A program made the position numbers and the translations under genes. Positions 251-34,556 of a DNA stretch of 34,717 nt are shown in pieces; positions within the stretch are counted from its first letter, which is position 1; each line of letters starts with the position of its first letter. The notes under the pieces are model-generated. The model ran no database searches, had not been told where the DNA came from, and saw only the letters and a list, made by a program, of their open reading frames with translations. The DNA comes from Candidatus Spyradosoma merdigallinarum (GTDB taxonomy: Bacteria; Verrucomicrobiota; Verrucomicrobiia; Opitutales; UBA953): positions 1 to 34,717 of the forward strand of contig DVOG01000132.1 in assembly GCA_018713755.1 (NCBI GenBank). Direction: 5' to 3'.

Positions 251-284
251 GGCGGGAACGCAAGCGGAAAAGTCCGTTCCCGCC
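251..284. repeat. Inverted repeat GGCGGGAACG...CGTTCCCGCC between divergent genes
   Basis: Perfect 10-bp arms at 251-260 and 275-284; made of the iterated GGGAACG motif. Confidence 0.8.
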
Positions 285-296
285 GCGCGTCGGAGC

Positions 297-325
297 TTTA
301 CTTTCTGCGCGGTCGGGGATAATAT
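297..325 (+). promoter_or_regulatory. Candidate sigma70-like promoter for pntAA (TTTACT-N17-TAATAT)
   Basis: TTTACT 297-302, 17-bp spacer, TAATAT 320-325, upstream of ATG 368. Confidence 0.5.
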
Positions 326-367
326 TGCACCTTCACACTGCACTGATTTTCCTTTTCAGCAAATCAA

Positions 368-1495
368 ATGAAAACCGTATTCGTTCCTCGTGAGACGCGC
401 GAAGAAGAAACGCGCACAGCTCTCATCCCGCAGGACGTCGCCGTTCTGACGCGCCTCGGGTATGAAATCCGTGTCGAGAAAGGTCTCGGCAAGAAATCCG
501 GCTTCGCTGACGAAGCCTACGAAAAGGCGGGCGCGACGCTCGTCGGCGATCCCGCGGCGGCGCTCGCCGAAGCCGACATCGTCGTGCGCGTGCTCAAGCC
601 CGAAAACGCGCAGGGCATGAAGCCCGGCGCGCTGCACCTGAGCTTCCTCGATCCGTTCAACGAAAAGGCGCTGCTGAACGAGTTCGCCGCGGCGAAACTC
701 AGCGCGGTTTCGCTCGAAATGATCCCGCGCTCGACGCTCGCGCAGAAAATGGACGTGCAGAGCTCGCAGACGTCGCTCGCCGGCTACTACGCGGTGATTT
801 TGGCGGCGACGAAGCTGCCGAAGATTTTCCCGATGATGATGACGCCCGCGGGAACGATTTCCCCGGCGCGCGTGTTCGTCATCGGCGTCGGCGTCGCCGG
901 GCTGCAGGCGATCGCGACGGCGAAGCGCCTCGGCGCGCGCGTCGAGGCGTTCGACACGCGCCCGGTCGTCGAAGAGCAGGTCAAGTCTCTCGGCGCGAAA
1001 TTCGTCAAGATCGACTTGGGCGAGATGGGGCAGACGGCGCAGGGCTACGCGAAAGAGCTCACGCCGGAGCAGCTCGAGCTTCAGAAGAAAGGGCAGGCGA
1101 AAGTCTGCGCGCAAAGCGACATCGTCATCACGACGGCGAAGGTTTTCGGCCGCAAGGCGCCGCGGCTGCTGACGAAGGACATGATCGCGGGCATGAAGCC
1201 GGGCAGCGTCATCGTCGACATGGCCGTCTCCACCGGCGGGAACGTCGAAGGCTCCGACCCGACGAAGGACGTCGTCACGGAAAACGGCGTGCTCATCATC
1301 GGCGGGGACAACCTCGAACGCCGCGTTCCCGCGGACGCCTCGAAGATGTTCTCCGGGAACATTTCCGCGTTTCTCCAGCACTTCTGGGACGCGGAGAACA
1401 AGACGCTCAAAATCGATCAGGAAGAGCCGATCATGAAGGGCTGCCTGCTCACGCACGGCGGCGCGATCGTGCACGAGCGCTTCAAAAACGCGTGA
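368..1495 (+). CDS. pntAA: NAD(P) transhydrogenase subunit alpha, part 1
   Basis: MKTVFVPRETREEETRTALIPQDVAVLTRLGYEIRVEKG...; alanine dehydrogenase/PNT domain; followed by pntAB and pntB. Confidence 0.95.
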   Translation: MKTVFVPRETREEETRTALIPQDVAVLTRLGYEIRVEKGLGKKSGFADEAYEKAGATLVGDPAAALAEADIVVRVLKPENAQGMKPGALHLSFLDPFNEKALLNEFAAAKLSAVSLEMIPRSTLAQKMDVQSSQTSLAGYYAVILAATKLPKIFPMMMTPAGTISPARVFVIGVGVAGLQAIATAKRLGARVEAFDTRPVVEEQVKSLGAKFVKIDLGEMGQTAQGYAKELTPEQLELQKKGQAKVCAQSDIVITTAKVFGRKAPRLLTKDMIAGMKPGSVIVDMAVSTGGNVEGSDPTKDVVTENGVLIIGGDNLERRVPADASKMFSGNISAFLQHFWDAENKTLKIDQEEPIMKGCLLTHGGAIVHERFKNA

Positions 1496-1550
1496 TTTTT
1501 CCGCGGACGAAAGGAAGCAAGTTTTTTAATCTCAACAAAAAAATCAAGCC

Positions 1551-1835
<285 letters not shown>

Positions 1836-1839
1836 TCCG

Positions 1840-3360
1840 ATGAACGCAGCAATTTTAGCGCAGGCGGCGGCCGCCGCCGTCGGAAGCGGACCCGTTCCCG
1901 AAACGGTGATCAACCTCGCCTATATCGTCGCGTGCGTGTTCTTCATCTTCGGGATCAAGCGGCTCGGAAAAACCGAGACCGCGCGGAGCGGGAACGTGGT
2001 TTCCTCGCTCGGCATGCTCATCGCCGTCGTCGCCGTCTTCCTTGAAAAGGACGTGACGGCGTCGTGGACGACGGACTGGTACATGAACGGCTATCTGTGG
2101 TGCTTCGGCGGCATCGCGATCGGTGCGGTCATCGGCGCGGTCTGGGCGAAGAAAGTCAAGATGACGGGCATGCCCGAACTCGTCGCGCTCTTCAACGGCT
2201 TCGGCGGTCTGGCGTCGATGCTCGTCGCGTGGTCGGAATTCGTCAAGCTCGACGCGACGGGCGCGCCCGTTTCGCACGCGCTCACGAGCGAGAACGCGGT
2301 CAGCGAAGTTTCGCTTTACCTGACGATTCTGATCGGCGCGATCACGTTCACGGGATCGGTGCTCGCGTGGGCGAAGCTTTCCGAAAAGATTTCGGGGCGT
2401 CCGTTCCTGTTCAAGGGCCAGCAGGCGGTGAACGCGGTGATCGTGCTCGCGGTGCTCGTCGGCATGGTCGTTTACCTGTTCCCGGGCATCGTTCCCGCGG
2501 GCGATCCCGCGACCGTGCAGGAAGTCGCGCTTTACGGGGCGATCGTCGTTTCGCTGATCATGGGCGTCACGGTCGTGCTGCCGATCGGCGGCGGCGACAT
2601 GCCGGTCGTGATTTCGATGCTGAACAGCTTGTCCGGCTTGGCCGCGGCGATGGCGGGCTTCGTCATCAGCAACAACGTGCTCGTGGTCGCGGGCTGCTTG
2701 GTCGGCGCGTCGGGCGTGATCCTTACCGTCATCATGTGCAAGGCGATGAACCGCTCCGTCGGCAACCTGCTCTTCAGCGGCTTCGGCGCGGCGGATTCCG
2801 GCTCTTCGAAGAAGGCGGGAACGGGCGCGGAGCCGAAGGCGGTTTCCGTGGAAGACGCGTATCTCGTGCTCGAGGCGGCGCGCTCGGTCGTGTTCATTCC
2901 CGGCTACGGGATGGCGGTCGCGCAGGCGCAGCACGTCGTGAAGGAACTCGCGGCGAAGCTCGAAGAAAACGGCGCGGAAGTCAACTTCGCGATTCACCCG
3001 GTCGCGGGGCGCATGCCCGGGCACATGAACGTGCTGCTCGCGGAAGCGGACGTGCCTTATGAACAGCTCAAGACGATGGACGAAATCAACCCGATGATGC
3101 CGATGCAGGACGTCGCGATCGTCATCGGCGCGAACGACGTCGTCAACCCGGCGGCGGCTTCCGACAAGTCTTCGCCGATTTACGGCATGCCGATCATCAA
3201 GGCGAACGAGGCGCGCACGGTCTTCGTGCTCAAGCGCGGGAAGGGCAAAGGCTTCTCCGGCATCGAGAACGAGCTGTTCACGCTGCCGAACACGCGCATG
3301 ATTTACGGCGACGCGAAGGCGACGATCTCCGCGCTCGTTTCCGAATTCGGGAAAGACTGA
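1840..3360 (+). CDS. pntB: NAD(P) transhydrogenase subunit beta
   Basis: 506 aa; FNGFGGLAS, GGGDMPVVISMLNSLSGLAAA, IPGYGMAVAQAQH motifs. Confidence 0.97.
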   Translation: MNAAILAQAAAAAVGSGPVPETVINLAYIVACVFFIFGIKRLGKTETARSGNVVSSLGMLIAVVAVFLEKDVTASWTTDWYMNGYLWCFGGIAIGAVIGAVWAKKVKMTGMPELVALFNGFGGLASMLVAWSEFVKLDATGAPVSHALTSENAVSEVSLYLTILIGAITFTGSVLAWAKLSEKISGRPFLFKGQQAVNAVIVLAVLVGMVVYLFPGIVPAGDPATVQEVALYGAIVVSLIMGVTVVLPIGGGDMPVVISMLNSLSGLAAAMAGFVISNNVLVVAGCLVGASGVILTVIMCKAMNRSVGNLLFSGFGAADSGSSKKAGTGAEPKAVSVEDAYLVLEAARSVVFIPGYGMAVAQAQHVVKELAAKLEENGAEVNFAIHPVAGRMPGHMNVLLAEADVPYEQLKTMDEINPMMPMQDVAIVIGANDVVNPAAASDKSSPIYGMPIIKANEARTVFVLKRGKGKGFSGIENELFTLPNTRMIYGDAKATISALVSEFGKD

Positions 3361-3400
3361 GCGCTTTCCCCCGCGTTCCCGCGACAGGCGGGAAAAGAAA

Positions 3401-3443
3401 AAAAAGCGTTCCCGCGATGCGTTTCGCGGGAACGCTTTTTTTT
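3401..3443. terminator. Bidirectional rho-independent terminator between pntB and speA
   Basis: AGCGTTCCCGCGA-tgcgtt-TCGCGGGAACGCT (13-bp perfect stem) flanked by A-tract and T-tract, between convergent genes. Confidence 0.92.
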
Positions 3444-3527
3444 GTGTTTCGGCGGAAAAAAGGCGGCGCCTGCCGGAACCGCGGGAACTTTTTTTCTCGC
3501 TCCCGCGCGGGAACGCGCCGCGCGCGC

Positions 3528-5504
3528 TCAGGCGGATTTTTTCCGGGAGCTTTTCCCGCGGGAACTCTTTCTCGCCGCGCGCGCGGGAACGAGGTAGGAC
3601 TTCGCCTTGATGAGCTTTTCGTAAAGCGCGAGCAGCGCGACGCCTTCGCGCGGGCGCACGCGGTCCGCCTTCGTTTCCTGGTCGATGCTGCGCTTCATCA
3701 TGCGGCAGAGCTCGTCCGCGTCGTATTGAATCATCGCCAGGATTTTTTCGACGGAAAAGCCGGAAATCGCCTCCTCGATGTAGAAGCCGTCCTCTTCGTC
3801 TTCTTCGAGAAAAACGTGCGCTTCGTCGACGCGCCCGAAGAGATTGTGCATGTCGCCGACGATGTCCTGATAGGCGCCGACGAGGAACGCGCCGAGGTAA
3901 TACGGCTCCTTCGGGTTGAGCGGATGGAGCGCGAGCATGTTGCGCACGTCCTCGAAATCGACGAAGTTGGAGATTTTCCCGTCGCTGTCGCAGGTGATGT
4001 CCACGAGCGTGGTTTCGACCGTGGGCTTTTCGTTGAGACGATGAATCGGCGCGATCGGGAACAGCTGCCCGATCGCCCAATGGTCGAGCAGCGACTGGAA
4101 CACGGAAAAGTTGCAGACGTATTGCTCGGAGAGCGCCGCGTCGAGGTCGGCGAGCTCTTCGGGAACGTTGCCCTCGAGCGCGGGAAGCTCCTTTTGGATT
4201 TCCCGGCAGATTTCCCAGAAAAGACGATCCGCTTCCGCGCGGTTTTCGAGGTTGAGATAGCCGTGCTGGAACAGCGAAAGCGCTTCGTCGCGCTTCTGCT
4301 CCGCGTCGTGGTAGCGCTCGAGCAGCCCGTAGCGCTTCCCGTCCTTGAGAATGTCTTCGAGTTCCCGCACGATGGGCGCTTTCTTCGCGCGCACGAGCGG
4401 GCCGGAATCGGACGCTCCCGGAGAAATTTTTCCCACGGCTTCGAAAATCAGAATCGCGTGCGGCGCGACGATGGCGCGCCCGCTCTCCGACGTGATGTTC
4501 GGGTGCGGCACGTCCGCGTCGTCGCAGACCGCCTTGATGTTGGAGACGACGTCGCGCGCGTAGACTTCCGTCGAGTAGTTCATCGAGCTTTCGTAGTTCG
4601 AGCGGCTTCCGTCGTAGTCGATGCCGAGCCCGCCGCCGACGTCGATGTTGCCCATCGGGAACCCCATTTTGTAAAGCTCGCAGTAGAAGCGCGCGGCCTC
4701 CGTGACGGCTTTTTTGATCGTGAGAATGTTCGGCACCTGCGAGCCGACGTGAAAGTGCAGCAGCTGGAGCGAGTCCGCCATGCGCGCGCGCTTGAGCTTT
4801 TTCGCGGCGAGAATGATTTCGCTGGGAGAAAGCCCGAACTTGGCGGATTCGCCGGTGGACTTCGCCCATTTGCCTTCGCCGCTCGTCATCAGCTTCGCGC
4901 GGAATCCGATGACGGGAACGACGTCCACTTCCCGCGAAAGGCGGATGATTTCGTCCACCTCGTCGAGCTGCTCCACGACGATGACCGTGCGCTTCCCGAG
5001 GCGGCGCCCCATCAGCGCGAGGCGGATGTATTCCTCGTCCTTGTAACCGTTGCAGATGAGCAGCGCCTTTTTGCTCTCGAGCAGCGCGAGCGCGATCAGC
5101 AGCTCCGGCTTCGAGCCGGCTTCGAGCCCGTAGTCGTAGTCTTCGCCGGCGTCGAGAATTTCGTCGACGACTTCGCGGAGCTGGTTGACTTTTATCGGGA
5201 ACACGCCGCGGTAGCGCCCGTCGTAGGCCTCGTCCTTGATCGCGGCGCGGAACGCCTCGTTGAGCTGCATGACGCGGGAACGCAGCAGATCCTGCACGCG
5301 CACCGTGAGCGGCGGGCGCAGCCCCATCGATTCCGCCTCCTTCACGATGTCGATGATGCGGATGTGCCGCTGGTCGCCCATCGGATGCACGTTGAGAAAG
5401 CCGTCCTCGTCGACGGAAAAATGCGAGGCGCCCCAGCGCCGGAAGCCGTAGTATTCTTCCGCTTCGCGCGGAGTCCAGGGAATGACGGAATTTTTCTTGC
5501 TCAC
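3528..5504 (-). CDS. speA: Biosynthetic arginine decarboxylase
   Basis: Homologous region begins VSKKNSVIPWTPREAEEYYGFRRWGASHFSVDEDGFLNVHP; GTG start at 5504 preferred over the 5642 ORF start because the extension is motif-derived RGNA repeats. FPIKVNQ, HFHVGSQ, DVGGGLGIDYDGS motifs. Confidence 0.93.
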   Translation of the reverse strand: MSKKNSVIPWTPREAEEYYGFRRWGASHFSVDEDGFLNVHPMGDQRHIRIIDIVKEAESMGLRPPLTVRVQDLLRSRVMQLNEAFRAAIKDEAYDGRYRGVFPIKVNQLREVVDEILDAGEDYDYGLEAGSKPELLIALALLESKKALLICNGYKDEEYIRLALMGRRLGKRTVIVVEQLDEVDEIIRLSREVDVVPVIGFRAKLMTSGEGKWAKSTGESAKFGLSPSEIILAAKKLKRARMADSLQLLHFHVGSQVPNILTIKKAVTEAARFYCELYKMGFPMGNIDVGGGLGIDYDGSRSNYESSMNYSTEVYARDVVSNIKAVCDDADVPHPNITSESGRAIVAPHAILIFEAVGKISPGASDSGPLVRAKKAPIVRELEDILKDGKRYGLLERYHDAEQKRDEALSLFQHGYLNLENRAEADRLFWEICREIQKELPALEGNVPEELADLDAALSEQYVCNFSVFQSLLDHWAIGQLFPIAPIHRLNEKPTVETTLVDITCDSDGKISNFVDFEDVRNMLALHPLNPKEPYYLGAFLVGAYQDIVGDMHNLFGRVDEAHVFLEEDEEDGFYIEEAISGFSVEKILAMIQYDADELCRMMKRSIDQETKADRVRPREGVALLALYEKLIKAKSYLVPARAARKSSRGKSSRKKSA

Positions 5505-5648
5505 TGTCGTTTCGGTATTCGCGGAAAAATTTTCTGCGGGAATTAAAACCGCTGCGGCGTTCCCGCGCAATGATTTTGACGCCGCGTTCCCGCGTCTTTT
5601 CTCTTGCGCGTTCCCGCGTTGCCGAGCATACTTTCTCGCCACATTTAC

Positions 5649-5725
5649 GGGCGTTTAGCTCAGCCGGTCAGAGCGTCTCGTTTACACCGAGAAGGTCGGG
5701 GGTTCGAGCCCCTCAGCGCCTACCA
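5649..5725 (+). tRNA. tRNA-Val (anticodon TAC), CCA encoded
   Basis: GGGCGTTTAGCTCAGCCGGTCAGAGCGTCTCGTTTACACCGAGAAGGTCGGGGGTTCGAGCCCCTCAGCGCCTACCA folds as cloverleaf; anticodon loop TTTACAC. Confidence 0.93.
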
Positions 5726-5745
5726 GAGGGTATTTTTTTTCCGAT

Positions 5746-6240
5746 ATGAACAAGCACACACTTTCCGCACTCGTCGAAAACAAGTTCGGCGTTCTCGCCC
5801 GCGTGTCCGGTCTGCTCAGCGGCCGCGGCTTCAACATCGAGACGCTGAACGTCGGGCCGACCAACGACCCGCGCTTTTCGCGCATCACGGCGACCGTCGT
5901 CGCCGACGACGCCGGCTTTGACCGCTGCGTCCGCCAGCTCGAAAAGCTCTTCAACGTCGTCACGGTGCAGAACTTCGACGGCGTGGATTTCGTCTCGCGG
6001 GAGCTCGTGATGGTCAAAGTGAAGGCGAACCAGGAAACGCGCTCGCAGATTCTCGAAATCGCGGGAATTTTCCGCGCGCAGGTCGTCGACGTTTCGCTCG
6101 AAAGCCTCATCCTCGAGTTCACCGGCAACGCCAACAAAATCAAGGCGCTGCTCAAGCTGCTCGAAAACTACGAAATCATCGAAATGGGCCGCACGGGAAC
6201 GCTCTCGCTCGAACGCGGGCTGAACGCCGTGCGCGGCTGA
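5746..6240 (+). CDS. ilvN: Acetolactate synthase small (regulatory) subunit
   Basis: MNKHTLSALVENKFGVLARVSGLLSGRGFNIETLNVGPTNDPRFSRIT; ACT domain. Confidence 0.95.
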   Translation: MNKHTLSALVENKFGVLARVSGLLSGRGFNIETLNVGPTNDPRFSRITATVVADDAGFDRCVRQLEKLFNVVTVQNFDGVDFVSRELVMVKVKANQETRSQILEIAGIFRAQVVDVSLESLILEFTGNANKIKALLKLLENYEIIEMGRTGTLSLERGLNAVRG

Positions 6241-6326
6241 GTTTCTCCTTCCGCGCGTTCCCGCGGGAACGGCGTCCGCGCCGTCCCCCTTCCGCGAAAA
6301 CACCGAATTTCATCGCAAAAAAAATT

Positions 6327-7454
6327 ATGGCAACGAAAAAAGCGACAGCTACGAAAACGGCGGCGAAAAAGGCCGCTCCCGCGAAAAAGGCTTGCGGCAA
6401 AAAAGCCTGCGCCGCGAAGGCGTCCGCTCCCGCGAAAAAAGCGGCGGCGTCCAAGAAAGTGCCCGTCGGCAGCGTGAAAGTCTATCACGAAAAAGACGCG
6501 GATCTCGGCGCGCTCAAAGGCAAGACCGTCGCCGTGCTCGGCTACGGCGCGCAGGGCCGCGCGCAGGCGCTGTGCATGCGCGATTCCGGCGTGAACGTCA
6601 TCATCGGCGTCCGTCCCGGGAAGTCGTTCAAGGCCGCGAAGGCGGACGGCTTCGAAGTGATGCCCGTGGACAAGGCCGCCAAGCGCGCGGACATCATCCA
6701 CCTGCTCCTGCCGGACGAAAAGCACAAGGAAGTTTACGACGCGCAGATCAAGAAGCACGTCAAGCCGGGCAAGACGCTCTGCTGCTCCCACGGCTTCGCC
6801 TACGTCTTCAAGACGATCGTTCCGCCCGAAGGCGTCGACGTGATCATGGTCGCGCCGAAAGGCCCGGGAACGGAAGTGCGCCGCGTCTTCGAAGAAGGCT
6901 TCGGCTGCCCGGGACTCGTCGCCGTGTTCCAGGACGCGTCGGGAACGGCGCTGCAGACGGCGCTCGCCATCGCGAAGGCGGAAGGGCTGACGCGCGGCGG
7001 CGTGCTCGAATGCACCATGGAGCAGGAAACCTACGAAGACCTCTTCGGCGAACAGAACGTGCTCTGCGGCGGGCTCGTCGACCTGATGAAATACGGCTTC
7101 GAAACGCTCACCGAAGCGGGCTACCCGCCGGAAATGGCGTATTTCGAATGCGTCCACGAAGCGAAGCTCATCGTCGACATCATCTACAACAAGGGCATCG
7201 CGGCGATGAACGCCGTCATTTCCAACACGGCGGAATTCGGCGAATACTACAACGGGCCGAAAATCATCACGCCGGACGTCAAGAAGCGCATGAAGGAATC
7301 GCTGGAGCGCATCCAGAGCGGCAAGTTCGCCAAGGATTGGCTCCGCGAGGCCGCGAAAGGCGCTCCGACCCTCGCGAAGAAGCGCGAACAGCTCTCCGCG
7401 CACACGGTCGAAGTCGTCGGCAACGAAATCCGCAAAATGTTCGAACGCAAATAA
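6327..7454 (+). CDS. ilvC: Ketol-acid reductoisomerase with Lys/Ala-rich N-terminal extension
   Basis: KVYHEKDADLGALKGKTVAVLGYGAQGRAQALCMRDSG, PDEKHKEVY, APKGPGTEVRRVF; about 44-aa KA-rich extension before the catalytic core. Confidence 0.95.
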   Translation: MATKKATATKTAAKKAAPAKKACGKKACAAKASAPAKKAAASKKVPVGSVKVYHEKDADLGALKGKTVAVLGYGAQGRAQALCMRDSGVNVIIGVRPGKSFKAAKADGFEVMPVDKAAKRADIIHLLLPDEKHKEVYDAQIKKHVKPGKTLCCSHGFAYVFKTIVPPEGVDVIMVAPKGPGTEVRRVFEEGFGCPGLVAVFQDASGTALQTALAIAKAEGLTRGGVLECTMEQETYEDLFGEQNVLCGGLVDLMKYGFETLTEAGYPPEMAYFECVHEAKLIVDIIYNKGIAAMNAVISNTAEFGEYYNGPKIITPDVKKRMKESLERIQSGKFAKDWLREAAKGAPTLAKKREQLSAHTVEVVGNEIRKMFERK

Positions 7455-7478
7455 GCCCGCGTTCCCGTTTTGAAAAAG

Positions 7479-7518
7479 AAGCGTTCCCGCGCGGTTTCCG
7501 CCGGCGGGAACGCTTTTC
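7479..7518 (+). terminator. Terminator-like hairpin after ilvC
   Basis: AGCGTTCCCGC (7480-7490) / GCGGGAACGCT (7504-7514) followed by TTTCGTTTT. Confidence 0.75.
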
Positions 7519-7558
7519 GTTTTCTCCGCGCCGCGGGCTCGTTCCCGCGCCTTACGGC

Positions 7559-7587
7559 TTGAATTCCGCGCCGCGGAGCTTTTTAAT
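7559..7587 (+). promoter_or_regulatory. Candidate promoter for lysC (TTGAAT-N17-TTTAAT)
   Basis: TTGAAT 7559-7564, 17-bp spacer, TTTAAT 7582-7587; lysC ATG at 7609. Confidence 0.55.
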
Positions 7588-7608
7588 GTCTCCCACATTT
7601 TTCGAAAA

Positions 7609-8823
7609 ATGCTGATAGTCCAGAAATACGGCGGAACTTCCGTCGGAAATGTTGACCGCATCAAAAACGTCGCCGCGAAGATCAAAAGCTACTGGTCGGA
7701 GGGGCACCAGGTCGTCGTCGTCGTTTCCGCGCGCAGCGGCGTGACCAACGAGCTCATCGCCCGCGCCAAAGCGATCGCGCCCGCGCCGAGCGAGCGCGAG
7801 ATGGACATGCTGCTCGCCACCGGCGAACAGGAAACCATCGCGCTGACCGCCATCGCGCTCCACGCCCTCGGCGTTCCCGCCGTCTCCCGCACGGGAGCGC
7901 AGGCGGGAATCATCACCGACGCGCTGCATTCCCGCGCGCACATCGCGAAGCTCACCGGAGGGGACATTCGGGAACGGCTCGACGAGGGCAAGGTCGTCAT
8001 CGTCGCCGGTTTCCAGGGCATTTCTTTCGACCGCGAAATCACGACGCTCGGCCGCGGCGGGAGCGACCTGACCGCCATCGCGCTCGCCGCCGCGCTCAAG
8101 GCGGACATTTGCCAGATTTTCACGGACGTGGACGGCGTCTACACTGCGGACCCGCGCATCGTCGTCGACGCCCGCAAGCTTCAGCGCATCTGCTACGAAG
8201 AAATGCTCGAGCTCGCCTCGAGCGGCTCGAAAGTCATGCAGTCGCGCTCCGTCGAATTCGCGCAAAAATACGGCGTCACCTTCGAAGTGCGCTCCTCTTT
8301 CAACAATCAACCCGGAACAGTCGTGAAAGCTTTTGAAAAAACCATGGAAGACGCCCTCGTTTCCGGCGTCGCGCTCGACCGCACGCAGACGCGCGTCACG
8401 GTCGGCGATTTGCCCGATTCTCCCGCCGCGTTCGCGGCGATTTTCGACGCGCTCGGCGAAGCGAGCGTCAGCGTCGACATGATCGTCAAGAACGTCGCGA
8501 AGGCGCCGGGCTCGGCGAATCTGACGTTTTCCGTGAACACCGACCAGGTCGGCTACGCCGAAAAAGTGATCAACGCCGCGCTCAAGAAGCTCGGCGCGGG
8601 AACGTTCCGCTCCTCCGGCGGCATCGCGAAGGTTTCCATCGTCGGCGTCGGCATGACGTCGCATCCGGGCGTCGCGGGAACGCTTTTCCGCGCGCTCGCC
8701 GACGCCGGCATCAATTCCGAACTGATCACGACGTCGGAAATCAAAATTTCCGTCGGCATCGCTCCGGAACAGGCGGACGCCGCCGTGCGCGCGATTCACG
8801 CCGCGTTCGGCCTGCAGAACTGA
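7609..8823 (+). CDS. lysC: Aspartate kinase
   Basis: MLIVQKYGGTSVGNVDRIKNVA, GRGGSDLTAIALA, C-terminal ACT domains. Confidence 0.96.
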   Translation: MLIVQKYGGTSVGNVDRIKNVAAKIKSYWSEGHQVVVVVSARSGVTNELIARAKAIAPAPSEREMDMLLATGEQETIALTAIALHALGVPAVSRTGAQAGIITDALHSRAHIAKLTGGDIRERLDEGKVVIVAGFQGISFDREITTLGRGGSDLTAIALAAALKADICQIFTDVDGVYTADPRIVVDARKLQRICYEEMLELASSGSKVMQSRSVEFAQKYGVTFEVRSSFNNQPGTVVKAFEKTMEDALVSGVALDRTQTRVTVGDLPDSPAAFAAIFDALGEASVSVDMIVKNVAKAPGSANLTFSVNTDQVGYAEKVINAALKKLGAGTFRSSGGIAKVSIVGVGMTSHPGVAGTLFRALADAGINSELITTSEIKISVGIAPEQADAAVRAIHAAFGLQN

Positions 8824-8830
8824 TCGTGCC

Positions 8831-8882
8831 GCCGCGGGAACGCCGCGCCGCTTCCCGTGAGCGCGCGGCGCGTTCCCGCGGC
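8831..8882. repeat. Inverted repeat/hairpin between lysC and next gene
   Basis: GCCGCGGGAACGC (8831-8843) and GCGTTCCCGCGGC (8870-8882), 13-bp perfect arms; no T-tract. Confidence 0.75.
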
Positions 8883-8893
8883 GCGAGACGACG

Positions 8894-10360
8894 ATGCGCC
8901 AGCTCATTTTCACTTCCGCGCTCGCCGGGTTGGATCGAGGCCGCTCCGGTTTCTGCACGGTCGCGCGCCACGCCTCGCTTCGCGCGCGCACGGTCGCCGA
9001 GCTGGAGAAAATGAGCGCCTACGAGCCGCCGGAGGGGACGCGGCCGACGGTCTTTCTTTTCCGCGTCTATTCCGGCGGGAGCGAGCCGCTCTACATCCTC
9101 ACGCGCGCCGGCGACGCGGGAACGGATCCCTTCGGACGCCCGAACTGCGTCGTGCATCACCTCATTTTTCGCCGCGACGAAATCGTACGGCTGTTCCCGC
9201 CCGCGGAAACCGCGCTGCGCTTCCGCGGCTGGTGCGAAAAGTTCGAAGGTCCGCCGCGCTTTTTGCCGGAAGACGAATCGCTCCCGCCGGAAATTCTGCG
9301 CGGGGACGGCGAGTCGCTCCTGCCCGCGCGCCGTTGGAAAGAGCTGACGGGTGACGCCGGGAACGCCGCGCTGCTGTGCCCGCGCGGCGATCCGCGCTCG
9401 ACGGTTTTCGTCGGCGACGATTTCATGACCGGAGAAGTGCTCGGGCTTTTCGCGGAATCCGCGGAAACGCTCGGAGCGGCGAACGCGTGGGAGGTCGCGT
9501 TTTCGACGGGCATCTGCTCGAAAAAGGGCGCGGGCCGCTTCCTGTGGCGCATGGTCGGCGAACGCGAGCTCGCCGTGCGGCATCCCGGCGATTTCATCCT
9601 CGATTTCCTCGCGCCGCTTTCCGTGCTGCGCGCGCCGAAAACGGCGTTCGCGGAATTCGCGCGGACGGGAAAAATGCCTCCGACGGACGACGACGGATTT
9701 CCCCTCGGCGAAGACGACGACGCGGACGAAACGGCGGATTCTGCAGTCCCGCCGCCTCTTGCCTCCGCGCCTGCCGGGAAAGCGTTCGCGGCGGGCGTTC
9801 CCGCGAAAGGCGACGCCGAGCGGAAGCGTTTCGCGGACATCGCGGGAACGGCGAAATTTCTCGGCATCTCCGCGCTGGTCGTCGCCGTCGTCGTTTTCGG
9901 CGTGCTGCTGTGGAATCCGTTCCCGCGCCGCGCCGCGGAAAGCGCTCCCGCGGCGATCGCCGGAACCGTTTCGGCGGAGAAGGACGCGGCGTCCGTGCGG
10001 CGCGGCATTCTTGAGGCGCGCATCCGCGAGGGCGATTTCGCGGGAGCGGCGGAAGCCTGGCTTTCTTTCGCCGAAGCGTTCCCGCAGGAAGCGGAAAAGC
10101 TGCGGCAGACGCATTGGCCGCGCTTCCGCCTCAAGACGCCGGGCGCGTACGCCGCGCGCGTCGCGCGGAGGCTGGCGCTGCTCGACGCGGGCGGCGTTTG
10201 GACGCAGGAGGAAAAAATGCTCGTCGCCGCGGATTTGGCGATGTTCCGCCGCGTTTGCCGCGAGCTCGAGCTGACGCCCGGTCTCGTTCAGAAAAAGAAC
10301 GCCGCCGTTTTCGAGCGCGCGGAGGCGGCGCTCGCCGCCGCGGGAACGGAGAAAGATTGA
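8894..10360 (+). CDS. Membrane-anchored protein resembling the bacterial GTPase-associated protein 1 (GAP1) N-terminal domain
   Basis: MRQLIFTSALAGLDRGRSGFCTVARHASL...; PNCVVHHLIF; one transmembrane segment FLGISALVVAVVVFGVLLW. Family assignment from memory of the N-terminal pattern, not searched. Confidence 0.6.
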   Translation: MRQLIFTSALAGLDRGRSGFCTVARHASLRARTVAELEKMSAYEPPEGTRPTVFLFRVYSGGSEPLYILTRAGDAGTDPFGRPNCVVHHLIFRRDEIVRLFPPAETALRFRGWCEKFEGPPRFLPEDESLPPEILRGDGESLLPARRWKELTGDAGNAALLCPRGDPRSTVFVGDDFMTGEVLGLFAESAETLGAANAWEVAFSTGICSKKGAGRFLWRMVGERELAVRHPGDFILDFLAPLSVLRAPKTAFAEFARTGKMPPTDDDGFPLGEDDDADETADSAVPPPLASAPAGKAFAAGVPAKGDAERKRFADIAGTAKFLGISALVVAVVVFGVLLWNPFPRRAAESAPAAIAGTVSAEKDAASVRRGILEARIREGDFAGAAEAWLSFAEAFPQEAEKLRQTHWPRFRLKTPGAYAARVARRLALLDAGGVWTQEEKMLVAADLAMFRRVCRELELTPGLVQKKNAAVFERAEAALAAAGTEKD

Positions 10361-10415
10361 GCGGCGGAACGCGCGGCGCGTTCCCGTCCCGGCGGCCGTT
10401 CCCGCGCCTTTGGAT

Positions 10416-10444
10416 TTGAAAGGCGCGCCGAAAAATCCCATAAT
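10416..10444 (+). promoter_or_regulatory. Candidate promoter for leuS (TTGAAA-N17-CATAAT)
   Basis: TTGAAA 10416-10421, 17-bp spacer, CATAAT 10439-10444; ATG at 10469. Confidence 0.6.
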
Positions 10445-10468
10445 GCGCCCTTACTTTTTTTTTTCACG

Positions 10469-13066
<2,598 letters not shown>

Positions 13067-13101
13067 GAATCCGACGACGCACCCGCATTTTGCGCGCATC
13101 G

Positions 13102-13145
13102 CGTTCCCGCGGCGGCTTTTCCCGGCTCCGCGGGAACGTTTTTTT
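13102..13145 (+). terminator. Rho-independent terminator after leuS
   Basis: CGTTCCCGCGG (13102-13112) / CCGCGGGAACG (13128-13138) followed by TTTTTTT. Confidence 0.85.
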
Positions 13146-13167
13146 CGCGGGAACGCGCGGCGCTCCG

Positions 13168-13842
13168 TCAGCTCCGCAGCAGCGCGCTGATGAGCCCGAC
13201 GCTGACTTCCGTCAGCCGGTTCACGACGCAGTGCGCGCGCGTGCGCCGAAGCAAATCGGCGGGATTCGTCGTGGCGACGGCGACGACTTTGAAGCCGCCG
13301 GCGATGCCTGCCTCGATGCCGGCGAGCGAATCCTCGAAGACGACGATGTTTTCCGGCGGGAGCCCGAGCGTCTGCGCCGCCTGCAGAAAAACGTCCGGCG
13401 AAGGCTTGCCCGCGGCGACGCATTCCTTGGAAATGATGCCGGAAAAATTGGAATGCAAATCCATGATTTCGAGCGCGAGGTCGATGTTCGCGCGCTCGGT
13501 CGACGAGCCGACGGCGCAGGGAATGTTCTGCTGCTTCAAGTCTTCCAGCAGACGGCGCGCGCCGGGCAGCGGCTCGAGGCCGTCTTCGCGGATGATTTTC
13601 CTGAAAATTTCCTCCTTGCGTTCGGAAAGCGCGCGGATTTCTTCCGGATCGCTGCTCCAGCCGAGAACGTGCGGGATGATTTCTTCGTTCCGGCGGCCGA
13701 AGCCGAGCCTGAAATGGTTTTCCGGGAGAAAGAGGTTTTTCTCTGCGGCGAGAATTTCCCAGCTGCGCTTGTGCGCGGCGGAAGAATCGACGATGACGCC
13801 GTCCCAATCGAAGACGGCTCCGGAGGCGAAATTTTTTCTCAT
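13168..13842 (-). CDS. HAD-family hydrolase (beta-phosphoglucomutase/phosphatase-like)
   Basis: From ATG 13842: MRKNFASGAVFDWDGVIVDSSAAHKRSWEILAAEK; DWDG, GSSTER, PSPDVFLQAA, VFEDSLAGIEA motifs. Confidence 0.88.
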   Translation of the reverse strand: MRKNFASGAVFDWDGVIVDSSAAHKRSWEILAAEKNLFLPENHFRLGFGRRNEEIIPHVLGWSSDPEEIRALSERKEEIFRKIIREDGLEPLPGARRLLEDLKQQNIPCAVGSSTERANIDLALEIMDLHSNFSGIISKECVAAGKPSPDVFLQAAQTLGLPPENIVVFEDSLAGIEAGIAGGFKVVAVATTNPADLLRRTRAHCVVNRLTEVSVGLISALLRS

Positions 13843-14052
13843 GGCGAAGCGAGGAGCGGAAACGAGGCTGAAAACGAGATGCGCGCCGCGCGCGGGAACG
13901 CCGGCGACGGGAACGAATATCGCACACTTCGCGCGGCTTGTAAACCGCCTTTTTGCCGCGCGCGCCGCGCCATGTTTTTCTGTTGTCAAGCCTGCGGGCG
14001 GCGTTTAATTTGAACGAAAATTCCCCCCAGATTAAACCTTGGTTAAAAAGCG

Positions 14053-15468
14053 ATGAAAGGATTGAGATTTTTCGCGGCGATGCTCGCCGCGGCGGCGCTC
14101 GCGCCGTTCATGCATGGACAGGACGCGGCCGAGACGGCGTCCGCCGCCGTTCCCGTCGAGAAAGCGGCGGCGGATGTTCCCGCGGAATCCGCCGCGGCGC
14201 CGGAAGCGGAAAAAGCTCCGGAAGCGCTCCCGGCGGCGTCGGATGCGTCGAACGCCTCCGTCGTTCCCGCCGCGCCGGCCGCTGCTCCCGCGGCGATGCC
14301 TTCCGACGGCGATTTGACCGAAAACCAGAAAAAGCAGCTGCGCATCAGCGTGCTCAAGGCGCGGCAGGCGCGCGTCAACGCGGAAATCGCGCTCGGCAAG
14401 GCGCGGCTCGCCGAAAAGCTCGCGCCGCAGAAGGAAGAACGCGCGCGGCTCGAAGCCGAAACTTCGCTGCGCGCCGCGCGCACGACGGCGCGGCTCGCGG
14501 AAGTCGAATCCGCCAAGAAAAAGCTCGACGCCGAACTCGCGCGCGACAAGGCGCGCAACGATTTGGAGCTTTTCGAAAAGCGCAGCAAAGTGAGCGAGGC
14601 GGAGCTCGACCTGAAAATTTCCCGCCTCGAGCAGGAAATGCAGCTCGCCCGGTTCTCGCAGGGCATCGAGCAGGTGAAGGCGGCGGAAGCGCTGCGCGGC
14701 ATCGTCGTGTCCGACGCGGCCGCCGCTCCCGCCTACCGCAAGGATCCGCTTGAAAACGGCAAGCTCTACATTTCCGACCGCCGCATCGAGTTCAACGGCC
14801 CCGTCACGCCGGAGCTCGCCGAGCACGTCGTCGGACGCATTTATTTCTACAACAACCAAAGCGCGGAATATCCGATTTTCATCGTCATCGACAATTCGCC
14901 CGGCGGGAGCGTCGCGGCGGGCTACCAGATCATGAAGGCGATGGAGAGCAGCAAGGCGCCGGTTTACGTCGTGGTGAAGAGCTACGCCGCGTCGATGGCG
15001 GCGATGATCACGACGTTCGCGGAGCGTTCGTTCTGCTACGGGAACACGGTGCTGCTTCAGCATCAGCCGTCTTCCGGGATGAAGGGCAACCTGACGCAGA
15101 TGCGCGAAGGGCTCGATTCCGTCACGCGCTGGACGCGCAACATCAACGACCAGCTCGCGAAAAAAATGGGCATGACCTACGAAGAATACGTCGCGGAAAT
15201 GTACAAGCACGATTCCCGCGGCGACTGGTCGGAATTCGGCGACGGCGCGCAGCGCTGGAAGTGGGTGACCGACGTCGTCGACGCGATGGAAGAAACGAGC
15301 ATCGTTCGGAAAAACGACGGCGACAAACCCGCCGCCGCCGTTCCCGGAAGCGTCCGCGAATACAAATTCGACGAGCGCGGGAAGCCTTACGTCGAGCTTC
15401 CGACGCTCCCGGCGGGAGACATGTGGATGATTTACGATCCCGCGAACCTTTACCGCGTCGGCATCTGA
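14053..15468 (+). CDS. Exported coiled-coil protein with C-terminal ClpP-like serine protease domain (paralog 1)
   Basis: Signal peptide MKGLRFFAAMLAAAALAPFMHGQ, Ala/Pro-rich linker, charged coiled coil, then ClpP fold: IDNSPGGSVAAGYQI, SYAASMAAM (Ser), LLQHQPSSG (His), GDWSE (Asp). Confidence 0.85.
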   Translation: MKGLRFFAAMLAAAALAPFMHGQDAAETASAAVPVEKAAADVPAESAAAPEAEKAPEALPAASDASNASVVPAAPAAAPAAMPSDGDLTENQKKQLRISVLKARQARVNAEIALGKARLAEKLAPQKEERARLEAETSLRAARTTARLAEVESAKKKLDAELARDKARNDLELFEKRSKVSEAELDLKISRLEQEMQLARFSQGIEQVKAAEALRGIVVSDAAAAPAYRKDPLENGKLYISDRRIEFNGPVTPELAEHVVGRIYFYNNQSAEYPIFIVIDNSPGGSVAAGYQIMKAMESSKAPVYVVVKSYAASMAAMITTFAERSFCYGNTVLLQHQPSSGMKGNLTQMREGLDSVTRWTRNINDQLAKKMGMTYEEYVAEMYKHDSRGDWSEFGDGAQRWKWVTDVVDAMEETSIVRKNDGDKPAAAVPGSVREYKFDERGKPYVELPTLPAGDMWMIYDPANLYRVGI

Positions 15469-15509
15469 CGGCGCTTTCTCCCGGCAAATTTCTGACGAAG
15501 GATTTTTTT

Positions 15510-16901
15510 ATGGAATTGGAAAAAAAGCGTTTTTCGCGTTTCGCGCTGTTCGGCGCGGCGCTCGTCCTCTCCGGCTGCATTTCCGAACCGCCGCCGCCGC
15601 CGCCCGCGCCGCCGCCGGCCGAGCCCGAGGTGCTGACGCTGGAACAGATCGTCTCCGAGGCGATGTCGACGAACATCCCCAAGCTCGCTTCCGAAGAGAC
15701 GCATTCCGTCGAGGAAGCGAAAACGGAGCTGGGGCGGCTTTCGGCGGAAACGGAAGCGCTCCGCCTGGAAAAGGAACTCATCGAGGCGCGCCTCGCGCTC
15801 GCCGCCTCCGAAAACGAACGGGCGCTCGCGTCGATGCAGCTCGAAAAAACCGCGCTGGAAGCGGAGTGCGCCGACGCCGCGGCGAAAGTCGCCGAGGAAA
15901 TCGCCGGCATCACCGAGGAACGCATGGAGCTGGAACGGCGCCTCGCGCTTGAAACGGCGCAGTCGAACCTGCGCATCCGCGAAAAGCAGGAACGCCTCGA
16001 CGAGCTCGAAGTCGCTTCCCGCGCGCTGAAGGCGGAGATGACCGGCAAGGCCATGAGCACGAGCTTCTCCGTCGCCGTCGCCGACAAGAAGGAGCAGCTT
16101 TCCAAGCTCGCTCCCGCCGCCGCGCTGACGCCGAAATACCTGAAGGACCCGTTCGTGGACGGCACGCTCTACATCTCCGACCGCCGCGTCGCGCTGAACG
16201 GTCCCGTGACGGACGCCCTCGCGGAATCCGTCTGCGAGCAGCTTTATTTCTACGACAACCAGAACGCGGATTATCCGATTTTCCTCGTCATCGACAGCTC
16301 TCCCGGCGGGAGCGTCGCGGCGGGTTATCAGATTCAGAAGGCGATGCAGAGCTGCCGCGCTCCCGTCTACGTCGTCGTCAAAAATTTCGCCGCGTCGATG
16401 GCGGCCGTCATCGCGACGACGGCGGAGCGCTCGTTCTGCTTCTCGAACACGCAGATTCTGCACCATCAGATTTCGTCCGGCGTGCAGGGCAATCTGACGG
16501 TCATGCGGGAAGGCGTGGCCAAGGGCGAGCTTTGGTACAAGCGCTTCCTGGAGCCCGTCGCCCGCAAAATGGGAATTTCGCTCGAAGAGCTGACCAAGCA
16601 GATGTACGCGCACAATTCCGACGGCGACTGGTCCGAGACGGGAACGCGCGCCGTCGAGCTGAAGTGGATCGACCATCTGGCGACGCGCATCGAGGAAACC
16701 GGCGTGATCTCCATCGCCGAAAAAGAACCCGAAGCCAAAATAAAAGTGCTTCCCGCCGTTCCCGCGTCGAAAAAAGACGGGAACGCGCTCGCCGAAAAAA
16801 CCGACGCTCAGGGCCGCCGCTACGTCGAGCTGCCCGTGCTCGAAAACCCGTTCGACTTCTGGGCGATTTACGACAAGAACAACTATTACCGGACGCGCTG
16901 A
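15510..16901 (+). CDS. Lipoprotein with coiled coil and C-terminal ClpP-like serine protease domain (paralog 2)
   Basis: ATG at 15510; lipobox LVLSGC, proline-rich PPPPPPAPPPAEPE linker, coiled coil, ClpP fold with NFAASMAAV, LHHQISSG, GDWSE. Confidence 0.85.
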   Translation: MELEKKRFSRFALFGAALVLSGCISEPPPPPPAPPPAEPEVLTLEQIVSEAMSTNIPKLASEETHSVEEAKTELGRLSAETEALRLEKELIEARLALAASENERALASMQLEKTALEAECADAAAKVAEEIAGITEERMELERRLALETAQSNLRIREKQERLDELEVASRALKAEMTGKAMSTSFSVAVADKKEQLSKLAPAAALTPKYLKDPFVDGTLYISDRRVALNGPVTDALAESVCEQLYFYDNQNADYPIFLVIDSSPGGSVAAGYQIQKAMQSCRAPVYVVVKNFAASMAAVIATTAERSFCFSNTQILHHQISSGVQGNLTVMREGVAKGELWYKRFLEPVARKMGISLEELTKQMYAHNSDGDWSETGTRAVELKWIDHLATRIEETGVISIAEKEPEAKIKVLPAVPASKKDGNALAEKTDAQGRRYVELPVLENPFDFWAIYDKNNYYRTR

Positions 16902-16906
16902 CCGCC

Positions 16907-16942
16907 GCTCCCGGCGTTCCCGCGCGGGAACGCGCCGGGAGC
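16907..16942 (+). terminator. Large hairpin after the ClpP-like pair (possible terminator)
   Basis: GCTCCCGGCGTTCCCGCGCGGGAACGCGCCGGGAGC, near-perfect dyad with a 2-nt bulge; core CGTTCCCGCGCGGGAACG. No strong T-tract. Confidence 0.55.
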
Positions 16943-16964
16943 TTCGCGCTTGCTTTTTGAAAAA

Positions 16965-18149
16965 ATGGAATTCGCTCAACTGGGCTTGCCCGAATATCTG
17001 CTTTCGACGATAGAAAAAATCGGCTACAAGACGCCGACGCCGATTCAGGAAAAGGCCGTTCCCGTCGCCTTGCAGGGGCGCGACGTCATCGGCGCCGCGC
17101 AGACGGGAACGGGAAAAACCGCCGCTTACGCGCTGCCGACGCTCGCGCGTCTCGGCGAACCGAAAGGGAAACCGCGCTGCCTCGTGCTCGTGCCGACGCG
17201 GGAACTCGCCATGCAGGTGGACGAGGCGTTCCGCCGCTTCGGCGAAAACACGGCGGACAAAATCGCGCTGCTTTACGGCGGCGTGCGCTACGATCAGCAG
17301 GTGAAGGCGTTGCGCGCCGGCGCGGAAATCGTCGTCGCCACGCCCGGGCGTCTGCTCGACCTTCAGCGGCAGCGCTTCCTGGATCTTTCCTCGATCGAGG
17401 TGCTCGTGCTCGACGAAGTCGACCGCATGCTCGACATGGGCTTCATCGAGGACGTTTCCGCCATTATCCGCCTTTGCCCGAAAGACCGCCAGACGCTGCT
17501 TTTTTCGGCGACGGTCAACAAGACCATTCGCGAAATCGCCGGCTGGGCGCTGCGCGAGCCCGTGGAAATCGACGTGCGCACGGGAACGCTCGCCGCGGAC
17601 ACGATTTCCCACGCGCTGTATCCGGTCGCCGGATACCAGAAATACGATCTGCTCCTCGCGCTGCTCGAACGCACGAAATACCGGAGCGTCATCGTCTTCA
17701 CGCGCACGAAGCGCGACGCCGACCGCATCACGGAATGGCTCGAGGCGAACGGAATCGCCGTCGCGACCATGCACGCGGACCGCACGCAGCGGGAACGCGT
17801 CGAGGCGCTCGGCGGCTTCAAGTCCGGAAAATACAGCGTGCTCGTCGCGACGGACATCGCTTCCCGCGGGCTGGATATTTCCGGCGTTTCCCACGTCATC
17901 AACTACAACGTTCCCGAGCACCCGGAGGATTACGTCCACCGCATCGGGCGCACCGGGCGCGCCGGCGACGAAGGCGAGGCGTTCACGCTGTTTTCGCCCG
18001 ACGAACTTTCGCAGCTGCAGGCGATCGAGCGCTTGCTCGGGAAACCGATCGAGCGCAAGAAGCTCGACGGATTCCGTTACCGGACGGAACCGCTGATGCT
18101 GATGCCGGGCGCCGTTCCCGCCGCGCGTCCGCGCCGCCGCAACCGCTGA
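16965..18149 (+). CDS. DEAD-box family ATP-dependent RNA helicase (motif II is DEVD)
   Basis: PTPIQEKAVPVALQGRDVIGAAQTGTGKT, LDEVDRMLDMGF, FSATVNKTIR, HRIGRTGRAG. ATG at 16965 preferred to TTG at 16950. Confidence 0.95.
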   Translation: MEFAQLGLPEYLLSTIEKIGYKTPTPIQEKAVPVALQGRDVIGAAQTGTGKTAAYALPTLARLGEPKGKPRCLVLVPTRELAMQVDEAFRRFGENTADKIALLYGGVRYDQQVKALRAGAEIVVATPGRLLDLQRQRFLDLSSIEVLVLDEVDRMLDMGFIEDVSAIIRLCPKDRQTLLFSATVNKTIREIAGWALREPVEIDVRTGTLAADTISHALYPVAGYQKYDLLLALLERTKYRSVIVFTRTKRDADRITEWLEANGIAVATMHADRTQRERVEALGGFKSGKYSVLVATDIASRGLDISGVSHVINYNVPEHPEDYVHRIGRTGRAGDEGEAFTLFSPDELSQLQAIERLLGKPIERKKLDGFRYRTEPLMLMPGAVPAARPRRRNR

Positions 18150-18206
18150 GGTCCCCGATGCGCCGCGCGCGCCGTTCCCGCGGCGAAAAAAAAAAGAACC
18201 GCACGC

Positions 18207-19250
18207 ATGAAGATTTTCGCGGCAGAAAGCTCCTGCGACGAATCCGCGCTCGCCGTCTTCGACTCCGGACGCGGCGTCGTCGCGGAGCGCGTGAACACGC
18301 AGATCGCGCTGCACGGACAGTTCGGCGGCGTCGTCCCCGATTTGGCGGCGCGGGAACACCTCGCGAATTTCCCGGCGCTGCTCGAAGATATTTGTCGGAG
18401 CGTCGATCCCGCGGAAATCGACGCCGTGGCCGTCACGCGCGGCCCCGGACTCGCGGGCTGCCTCGCGCTCGGCATCGCTTATGCGCGCGCCGTCGCCGCG
18501 GCGTGGGGCAAGCCGATCGCCGCCGTGAATCATCTGCGCGGGCATCTTTTTTCTCCGTTCATTCCCGTGCATGAGGAAGATCCCGCGGCGTTCCCGCGCC
18601 GGCGCGCCGCGCTTTTCCCGCATTTGGGTCTCGTCGTTTCCGGCGGGAACACGCTGCTCGTCTCCGTCGACGCGGAATGCCGCGTCGAAATTCTCGCGCA
18701 GACCGTCGACGACGCCGCCGGCGAAGCGTTCGACAAGGGCGCGAAGCTGCTCGGGATGCCGTATCCCGGCGGCGCGCTGATCGAGAAGCAGGCGCGGCTC
18801 GCGCGCGTCCGCGGAACGTTCGCCTTCCCGCGCGGGGAAAATCTGCGCAAGGGCGCGCGCTTCAGTTTTTCCGGGCTGAAAACGAGCCTGCGCTATCGTC
18901 TGGAAAAGATGAGCGACGCGGAGCTCGCGGCCGCGCTGCCGGAAATCTGCGCGGATTATCAGGACGCGATCGTCGCGCAGCTCGCGGGGAAAACTTCCGC
19001 CGCGCTGCGGGAACGCCGCTTCGCGAGCCTGGGCGTTTCCGGCGGCGTTTCCAACAACGGCGCGCTGCGGGAAGCCGTCGCGGAAATCGCGGCGAAAAGC
19101 GGAATTCCGTTGCTCGCGGCGCGTCCGCGGCATACGGGCGACAACGCGGCGATGATCGCGTTCGCCGCGTGGTTTGACGCGCAGCTCCCGCCTCCCGCCC
19201 GCGCGCTCCCGGTCAGCTTCGCTCCCGCGCTGACGATAGACGTGCCCTGA
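18207..19250 (+). CDS. tsaD: tRNA N6-adenosine threonylcarbamoyltransferase
   Basis: AAESSCDESALAV, TRGPGLAGCLALG, NHLRGHLFSPF, VVSGGNTLL, GGVSNNGALRE. Confidence 0.95.
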   Translation: MKIFAAESSCDESALAVFDSGRGVVAERVNTQIALHGQFGGVVPDLAAREHLANFPALLEDICRSVDPAEIDAVAVTRGPGLAGCLALGIAYARAVAAAWGKPIAAVNHLRGHLFSPFIPVHEEDPAAFPRRRAALFPHLGLVVSGGNTLLVSVDAECRVEILAQTVDDAAGEAFDKGAKLLGMPYPGGALIEKQARLARVRGTFAFPRGENLRKGARFSFSGLKTSLRYRLEKMSDAELAAALPEICADYQDAIVAQLAGKTSAALRERRFASLGVSGGVSNNGALREAVAEIAAKSGIPLLAARPRHTGDNAAMIAFAAWFDAQLPPPARALPVSFAPALTIDVP

Positions 19251-19404
19251 GGCTTTTCGCTTCGAGCGGGAACGCGTTTCTTTCCGCTTCGCGCGGCGTG
19301 CGTTCTTGATTTTCGGCGGGCGATGTGCTTGAATAGCCGCCGTTCGGAAATCGTGTTCCGAGCGTCATACGAAGCAAACATCAATACAACCCCATACTCC
19401 AAAA

Positions 19405-19764
19405 ATGAACGGACAAATCAATATTACCGGCATCAATCTCGAACTCACGGAAGCGCTCAAAAACTACGTGAACGAAAAAGCCGCCAAGCTTTTCGAGCAT
19501 AATGACCGCATCATCCGCGCGAATTTCGATTTGGAATACATTCCGACGAAAGCGCCCGAGCAGTCCTTCGTAGCGAAATCCACGATTGAAATCGCCGGGC
19601 CGAACATCGTGCTCAGCGTGACGTCCGCCGACCTTTACAAATCCATCGACGAACTGATGGACAAGCTGATCCGGCAGATTCGCCGCGCGCATCGCCTCGA
19701 AAAGGAAAAGCGCAATCACCCGCAGGACATCGACATCGGGGACGACATCCCGAAGACGAAATGA
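19405..19764 (+). CDS. hpf: Ribosome hibernation promoting factor (short form)
   Basis: INITGINLELTEALKNYVNEKAAKLFEH, DLYKSIDELMDKLIRQIRRAH; 119 aa. Confidence 0.9.
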   Translation: MNGQINITGINLELTEALKNYVNEKAAKLFEHNDRIIRANFDLEYIPTKAPEQSFVAKSTIEIAGPNIVLSVTSADLYKSIDELMDKLIRQIRRAHRLEKEKRNHPQDIDIGDDIPKTK

Positions 19765-19792
19765 TTCCTCCGCCGGAGAAATCCGCGAGAAC

Positions 19793-19830
19793 AAAGCCGC
19801 CGCGCGCAGAAAATGCCGCGGCGGCTTTTT
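19793..19830 (+). terminator. Rho-independent terminator after hpf
   Basis: AAAGCCGCCGCG / CGCGGCGGCTTTTT; stem does not use the iterated motif. Confidence 0.85.
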
Positions 19831-19935
19831 CGTTCGCGGCGGGAACGGGCGTTCCCGCGCGTTTTCGGCGTTCCCGCGGGAACGGCATTCGCGGTTTGCA
19901 AGGCGCGGGAAAAACTGTTTTCATTGCCCGCTGAA

Positions 19936-20937: not shown

Positions 20938-20973
20938 GGGCGCGGGAACGCGAGGCGCAGCTGCACGACGCTC

Positions 20974-22326: not shown

Positions 22327-22351
22327 TTTTTTCTCAGGAGAAAGCGCTTTC

Positions 22352-34539: not shown

Positions 34540-34556
34540 ACGCTTTTTTTTTTGCG

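Follow-up and report, generated by a model that had tools for sequence, protein, structure and literature searches.

Inverted pairs of a dispersed motif, probably a DNA uptake sequence, form many predicted terminators in a genus of Verrucomicrobiota

The region between the convergent genes pntB and speA in a 34,717-nt stretch of DNA from Candidatus Spyradosoma merdigallinarum (referred to below as the window) contains two inverted copies of a short motif bordered by A- and T-tracts. The original prediction was that this pair constitutes a transcription terminator, that the same arms recur in the hairpins behind four other genes, and that these terminators strengthen the reading of the motif as a DNA uptake sequence. 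The locus thus raises two questions: do the inverted pairs act as terminators, and what maintains the motif from which they are built?

All five predicted hairpins are present in the window, within 1–4 nt of where they had been placed (Table 1), and Pfam agrees with the names given to their neighbors, i.e. pntB, speA (arginine decarboxylase), ilvC, leuS, and the genes for an H+-pyrophosphatase and a PEP-CTERM protein. The order of the stem is CGTTCCCG...CGGGAACG followed by a T-tract in five out of five cases, and the distance from the upstream stop codon to the hairpin is 23–45 nt. Convergent gene pairs flank four of the hairpins, three of which were called as terminators on both strands by our terminator finder. 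RNA folding of the five gave values of -25.3 to -29.6 kcal/mol (z -4.3 to -7.5), and each was more stable than all of its dinucleotide shuffles. The hairpin between pntB and speA consists of a 13-bp stem (AGCGTTCCCGCGA/TCGCGGGAACGCT) and a loop of 6 nt (TGCGTT). It is bordered by an A-tract (3398–3405) and a T-tract (3436–3443), folds together with these tracts at -29.6 kcal/mol (z -7.5), and is located 45 nt beyond the stop codon of pntB and, on the opposite strand, 92 nt beyond that of speA. The prediction that all five share the same arms had to be narrowed: motif stems are present in each, and what they have in common is the core CGTTCCCG(C/T), not the full 10-mer GCGTTCCCGC. The outer base pair is variable; the arms of the PEP-CTERM hairpin are ACGTTCCCGC, in which the core is kept and the outer pair is A-T, and in the leuS hairpin the end of the 3′ arm reads ACG... 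on the other strand. Stable GC-rich hairpins are thus found directly before a U-tract and just 3′ of stop codons, as in intrinsic terminators, and it is near certain in silico that the five act as such, with RNA 3′ ends expected at these positions. Some terminator-like hairpins of the window lack the motif, for instance that at 19795–19826.

Table 1. Motif hairpins and other motif copies in the 34,717-nt window
Feature	Positions	Strand	Basis
Bidirectional intrinsic-terminator hairpin between convergent pntB (+) and speA (-)	3405..3436	.	sequence, finder, folding
Terminator hairpin 3′ of ilvC, both motif arms	7480..7514	+	finder, folding, genus-mate orthologues
Terminator hairpin 3′ of leuS, both core arms and T-tract; convergent with HAD-like hydrolase gene	13101..13139	+	Pfam, finder, folding, orthologues
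Bidirectional terminator hairpin between H+-pyrophosphatase (+) and DUF486/DMT_6 (-) genes, A- and T-tracts	29980..30010	.	Pfam, finder, folding
Bidirectional terminator hairpin between PEP-CTERM (+) and iPGM (-) genes	31453..31488	.	Pfam, finder, folding
Single motif copy, pntB/speA intergenic region, outside the hairpin	3373..3382	+	exact match
Single motif copy, pntB/speA intergenic region	3507..3516	-	exact match
Abutting inverted motif pair, perfect 20-bp palindrome, just 3′ of Clp-protease-like gene	16914..16933	.	motif scan, Pfam, folding
Span of 60 exact GCGTTCCCGC copies, genic and intergenic	252..34590	both strands	motif scan

The exact 10-mers of the window compare with 0.86 +/- 0.90 in shuffled sequences, and 142 copies are found when up to one mismatch is allowed. 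The palindrome formed by two abutting copies folds without a T-tract next to it and was left out of the terminator set.

The share of terminators built from the motif was estimated with a finder that requires a hairpin of dG <= -9 followed by a T-tract downstream of a gene end; the expected share was taken from other intergenic DNA, in stretches of matched length. Genes were called with a dicodon model and simple scripts. The genome from which the window derives (G000) is a 1.6-Mb MAG of 198 contigs and 92% completeness, of which stretches totalling 368 kb (23% of the genome) were covered in the gene and terminator analysis, together with parts of its genus mates. The finder produced 126 terminator-like hits at 299 gene ends of G000, and the core is present in 81 of these (64%) versus 24% expected. 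Hence, it is not so that most terminators of this genome lack the motif, a result that would have counted against the prediction. For the five motif-rich genus mates the share ranged from 25 to 56%, versus 5–13% expected: 29/61 (48%, 9% expected) in G002, 49/92 (53%, 11% expected) in G007 and, in smaller samples, 9/22 (41%, 5% expected) in G005, 7/28 (25%, 7% expected) in G004 and 5/9 (56%, 13% expected) in G003, for which only nine terminators were available. These percentages are approximate, as the finder is permissive: about 20% of the mid-gene windows in G000, G002 and G007 yield a hit too, while both arms were present in only 1 of 387 such control windows. Among hairpins with dG <= -18 in these three best sampled genomes 73–81% bear the motif.

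The arrangement of the pairs is strongly biased. Exact double-arm stems have the + then - order in 35 of 35 cases in G000, 32 of 32 in G007 and 16 of 19 in G002, and intergenic pairs in the six motif-rich genomes comprise 97 of +- and 21 of -+ order. On average 3.1–4.8 of the 6 nt preceding intergenic +- pairs are A, and 3.5–4.3 of the 6 nt following them are T (G000, G002 and G007); this A/T enrichment is much less around -+ pairs and around coding pairs. Orthologues of leuS and ilvC keep the hairpin and the T-tract with unrelated loops, the arms of the ilvC hairpin being identical in genus-mate orthologues. Terminator loops and flanks in general differ between genes as well as between orthologues. 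Over-represented in the G000 stretches is also CGCTCCCGC/GCGGGAGCG (143 copies versus 35 expected), which pairs with a motif arm via G-U and forms the second arm of several terminators; it may be a terminator-linked variant.

Genome-wide, GCGTTCCCGC is present in 2455 copies in G000 (1289 forward, 1166 reverse), versus 15 for the reversed (mirror) control. The motif is enriched in all eight genomes of the genus, with 1591–2235 copies in the five motif-rich mates, 334 in G001 and 138 in G006, and stays at background or close to it in the 107 further genomes searched from the order. Of 287 genomes of the class, four have the perfect inverted pair GCGTTCCCGC-N3-20-GCGGGAACGC, and these four belong to this genus: it occurs 45 times in G000, 37, 15 and 9 times in three mates, and not in the other 283. 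The nearest named LeuS relatives come from Opitutae (Verrucomicrobiota) MAGs, and the motif is enriched at none of those loci. Single-position substitution revealed a sharp core: positions 2–9 (CGTTCCCG) are little tolerant, most internal one-mismatch variants being near expectation, position 1 favours G and position 10 favours C or T. The extended form is GCGTTCCCGCG, and outside the G 5′ and the CG 3′ of the core the flanks carry little information. In the six motif-rich genomes the density of CGTTCCCG[CT] is 2.2–2.9 per kb in genes and 2.6–9.5 per kb between genes. Between the genes of G000 the overall value is 9.5 per kb, with a maximum of 15.7 in convergent and a minimum of 6.5 in divergent regions; convergent regions are the densest in most motif-rich genomes. 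The longest motif-free stretch in about 925 kb of G000, G002 and G007 is at most 2.6 kb, and the spacing of the copies is about as even as random placement would give.

Is the motif itself maintained inside genes? Conservation of copies in orthologous genes was compared with that of control 8-mers of equal GC content containing at least two CpG, both motif orientations being pooled. Between motif-rich species 58% of the coding copies are exactly conserved, versus 19% of the matched 8-mers. When only sites with identical amino acids are considered, the values are 89% versus 35%. The coding motif is thus conserved at synonymous sites, which indicates that something reads the DNA itself.

Two genus mates depart from this pattern. 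Coding conservation is at the control level in G001 (12% versus 16%) and in G006 (7% versus 10%), and the few coding copies that these genomes contain are preferentially those that motif-rich species also have (54% versus 11%; 24 sites). The core is still present in 8 of 24 terminator-like 3′ ends of G001. The arms of the ilvC hairpin are altered in both genomes, to GTGTTCCCG...CGGGAACAC in G001 and to CGTTCCCG...CGGGAGCG in G006, and in another case G006 has GCGTTCTCGC...GCGAGAGCGC opposite GCGTTCCCGC...GCGGGAACGC in G005, so that the arms have changed and their pairing is preserved. These examples, which carry no statistical test, indicate two separable forces: termination would keep the pairing, and something else would keep the letters.

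In a PilB/PilT/PilC tree and in a ComEC tree G001 and G006 are found with the motif-rich G003, apart from the five other motif-rich genomes. This suggests that the motif was present in the ancestor of the genus and that its maintenance lapsed later; counts of gains and losses are uncertain because the branching of G001, G003 and G006 is unresolved. LeuS was dropped as a species tree, as it conflicts with the other two: it places G001 (L238) with G002, G004, G005 and G007 and not with G003 and G006. To judge from this disagreement, leuS has probably been exchanged between species. We also considered a switch of dialect in G006. A search for an alternative dispersed motif yielded few copies of GCGAGAACGC and CGTTCTCGC and no replacement code, and GGTTGGTGGTG was rejected as such because this repeat is intergenic. 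G006 has a repeat of its own, GGTTGGTGGTG/CACCACCAACC (loci L113–L122): 87 kb contain 75 copies of GTTGGTGGT, of which 69 are intergenic, often in clusters, with none in G001 and two in G002. All 18 copies of TAGCGGGAG in G006 are intergenic as well.

Each of the eight genomes of the genus has genes for ComEC, DprA, PilB/PilT/PilC, a ComM-like protein and prepilins, and seven have one for a secretin, which was not found in G000, an incomplete MAG. A dedicated ComEA was not found, the matches to HHH_3 (PF12836) being large Tex-like frames that are uninformative. Loss of core competence genes is ruled out as the cause of the motif decay, since both G001 and G006 retain ComEC, DprA, the ComM-like protein and pili; motif maintenance therefore does not track the presence of the core machinery. 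It is possible that a receptor was lost or changed in these two genomes. Four consecutive prepilin genes are clustered at 15596–18804 of L188 (G002) and 7389–10648 of L128, and such a cluster, which recalls comNOPQ in layout only, is a candidate site of the motif receptor. Also retained in G001 and G006, and absent from the motif-rich mates G002–G005 and G007, are an additional secretin and an extra ATPase of the GspE/PilB type (type II secretion-like).

We propose the following explanation, to which we assign a probability of about 0.7. The 8-bp motif CGTTCCCG, dispersed over both strands at about 2–3 copies per kb, would be maintained throughout the genome by sequence-specific recognition, and the likeliest recognizer would be a selection of self-DNA during natural transformation via the type IV pilus machine. 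With copies everywhere in both orientations, inverted pairs would arise easily at gene 3′ ends, and CGTTCCCG-loop-CGGGAACG pairs having an A-tract and a T-tract would be co-opted as Rho-independent terminators: the RNA hairpin would fold and the U-tract would release RNA polymerase. Between convergent genes one element could work in both directions. Several characteristics of known uptake sequences are found here: a short, sharp, non-palindromic core, about equal use of the strands, upkeep in genes and between them, transformation machinery, and +- pairs that make up a large share of the terminators, the core being present in 25–64% of terminator-like 3′ ends of the motif-rich genomes. As judged from these sequence data, the genome-wide role of the motif is probably DNA uptake.

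The alternative that survives best holds that the hairpins are real terminators and that the motif has some other role at the DNA level, as a methylation or restriction tag, a recombination or repair hotspot or a chromosome-organization site, and was likewise co-opted. We regard it as unlikely, though to be taken seriously. The terminators alone are no proof of uptake because any abundant non-palindromic motif present on both strands offers ready stems; hence, the prediction that they strengthen the uptake reading holds only insofar as they exclude mainly strand-polar and palindromic motifs. Retention of ComEC, DprA and pili by G001 and G006 despite the decay of the motif also fits another role, as does a weak strand bias, 58% of copies reading CGGGAACG on the G-rich strand. 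However, the motif does not resemble the best known signals of such kinds. HIP1 of cyanobacteria, likewise a very abundant short motif, is palindromic, as are most methylation sites, whereas CGTTCCCG differs from its own reverse complement. Chi and KOPS sites, likewise abundant conserved octamers, are strongly strand-polar, whereas the bias found here (58:42 on G-rich and 53:47 on C-rich pieces) is far below theirs. Moreover, the number of copies per kb, the sharp core of 8–10 bp, the synonymous conservation and the terminator pairs of one orientation together match uptake sequences. The uptake reading is favoured above all because the motif is kept in genes and because G001 and G006 lost its maintenance while hairpins persist.

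It is highly improbable that the inverted pairs result by chance from the abundance of the motif and are not terminators. At the intergenic density of G000, 24% of random stretches of equal length indeed contain the motif, but the shares found in the motif-rich genomes exceed expectation by a factor of about 2.7 to 8. The near-exclusive + then - order of double-arm stems, the A/T tracts beside intergenic +- pairs, the leuS and ilvC orthologues with their unrelated loops, and the pairing-preserving arm changes in G001 and G006 all argue against it.

Equally improbable is that a REP/BIME-like palindromic element spread as terminators and left single copies as remnants. The density peak between convergent genes and the persistence of the motif in one third of terminator-like 3′ ends of G001, where its coding density is low, would be in line with this. 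Such elements, however, are confined to extragenic DNA and have a palindromic unit, whereas 923 of 1263 sites in G000 are genic; the exact conservation of coding copies at synonymous sites already contradicts such an origin, and the variable loops and flanks of the terminators also speak against it. Finally, action of the motif in RNA, where a regulator or a processing enzyme would bind it, is hardly credible, since, although the 3′-end hairpins would be transcribed judging by their position, both orientations are common in genes (415 same, 508 opposite in G000) and the conservation, measured over both, fits a signal in double-stranded DNA.

The interpretation of the motif as an uptake sequence that was co-opted for termination has precedents. 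In Neisseria 54–57% of the terminators contain the DUS, with 226 +- and 5 -+ pairs, and the Pasteurellaceae display a similar, weaker pattern for the USS (PMC1852404). Inverted uptake sequences act as terminators in Neisseria and Haemophilus, and the orientation bias, A/T tracts and 3′-end placement described above agree with these published cases. Within the searchable literature uptake-sequence terminators are reported only from Neisseriaceae and Pasteurellaceae (PMC1852404, PMC13020248), the two families also named in a survey from 2026 that covered tens of millions of terminators (PMC13020248). The motif has in common with the Neisseria DUS (GCCGTCTGAA) a non-palindromic core of 8–10 bp, about 2000 copies, presence in about half of the predicted terminators, a strong preference for +- pairs, A/T tracts and enrichment in convergent regions. 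Unlike the DUS, to which it is unrelated in sequence and phylum, it has most of its copies in genes, at a higher density (2–3 per kb), and its uptake role and any ComP-like receptor for it are putative. With the USS of Haemophilus and other Pasteurellaceae (AAGTGCGGT) it shares the dispersal, the use in terminator stems and the type IV pilus and ComEC machinery; the USS, in contrast, has long AT-rich flanks and a lower terminator share (16–29%).

On balance, and with somewhat less assurance than for the role of the motif as such, it appears that a self-DNA uptake sequence arose independently in this genus of Verrucomicrobiota and was recruited into about half of the terminators there, and that its upkeep lapsed in G001 and G006, where several terminators were kept with changed arms. 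No report of uptake sequences in Verrucomicrobiota or Opitutae was found in the searchable literature, mostly without subscription journals, and within that literature this would be the first uptake-like motif of such a kind found outside the Pseudomonadota. If correct, it would constitute a third, unrelated case beside Neisseriaceae and Pasteurellaceae, and the arrangement would be convergent, following from any self-DNA tag that is present on both strands. One genus of eight species, six of which maintain the code and two of which do not, would allow the forces behind the upkeep of uptake sequences and of terminators to be separated by comparison, and natural transformation could be sought in uncultured Verrucomicrobiota with CGTTCCCG as a ready test motif.
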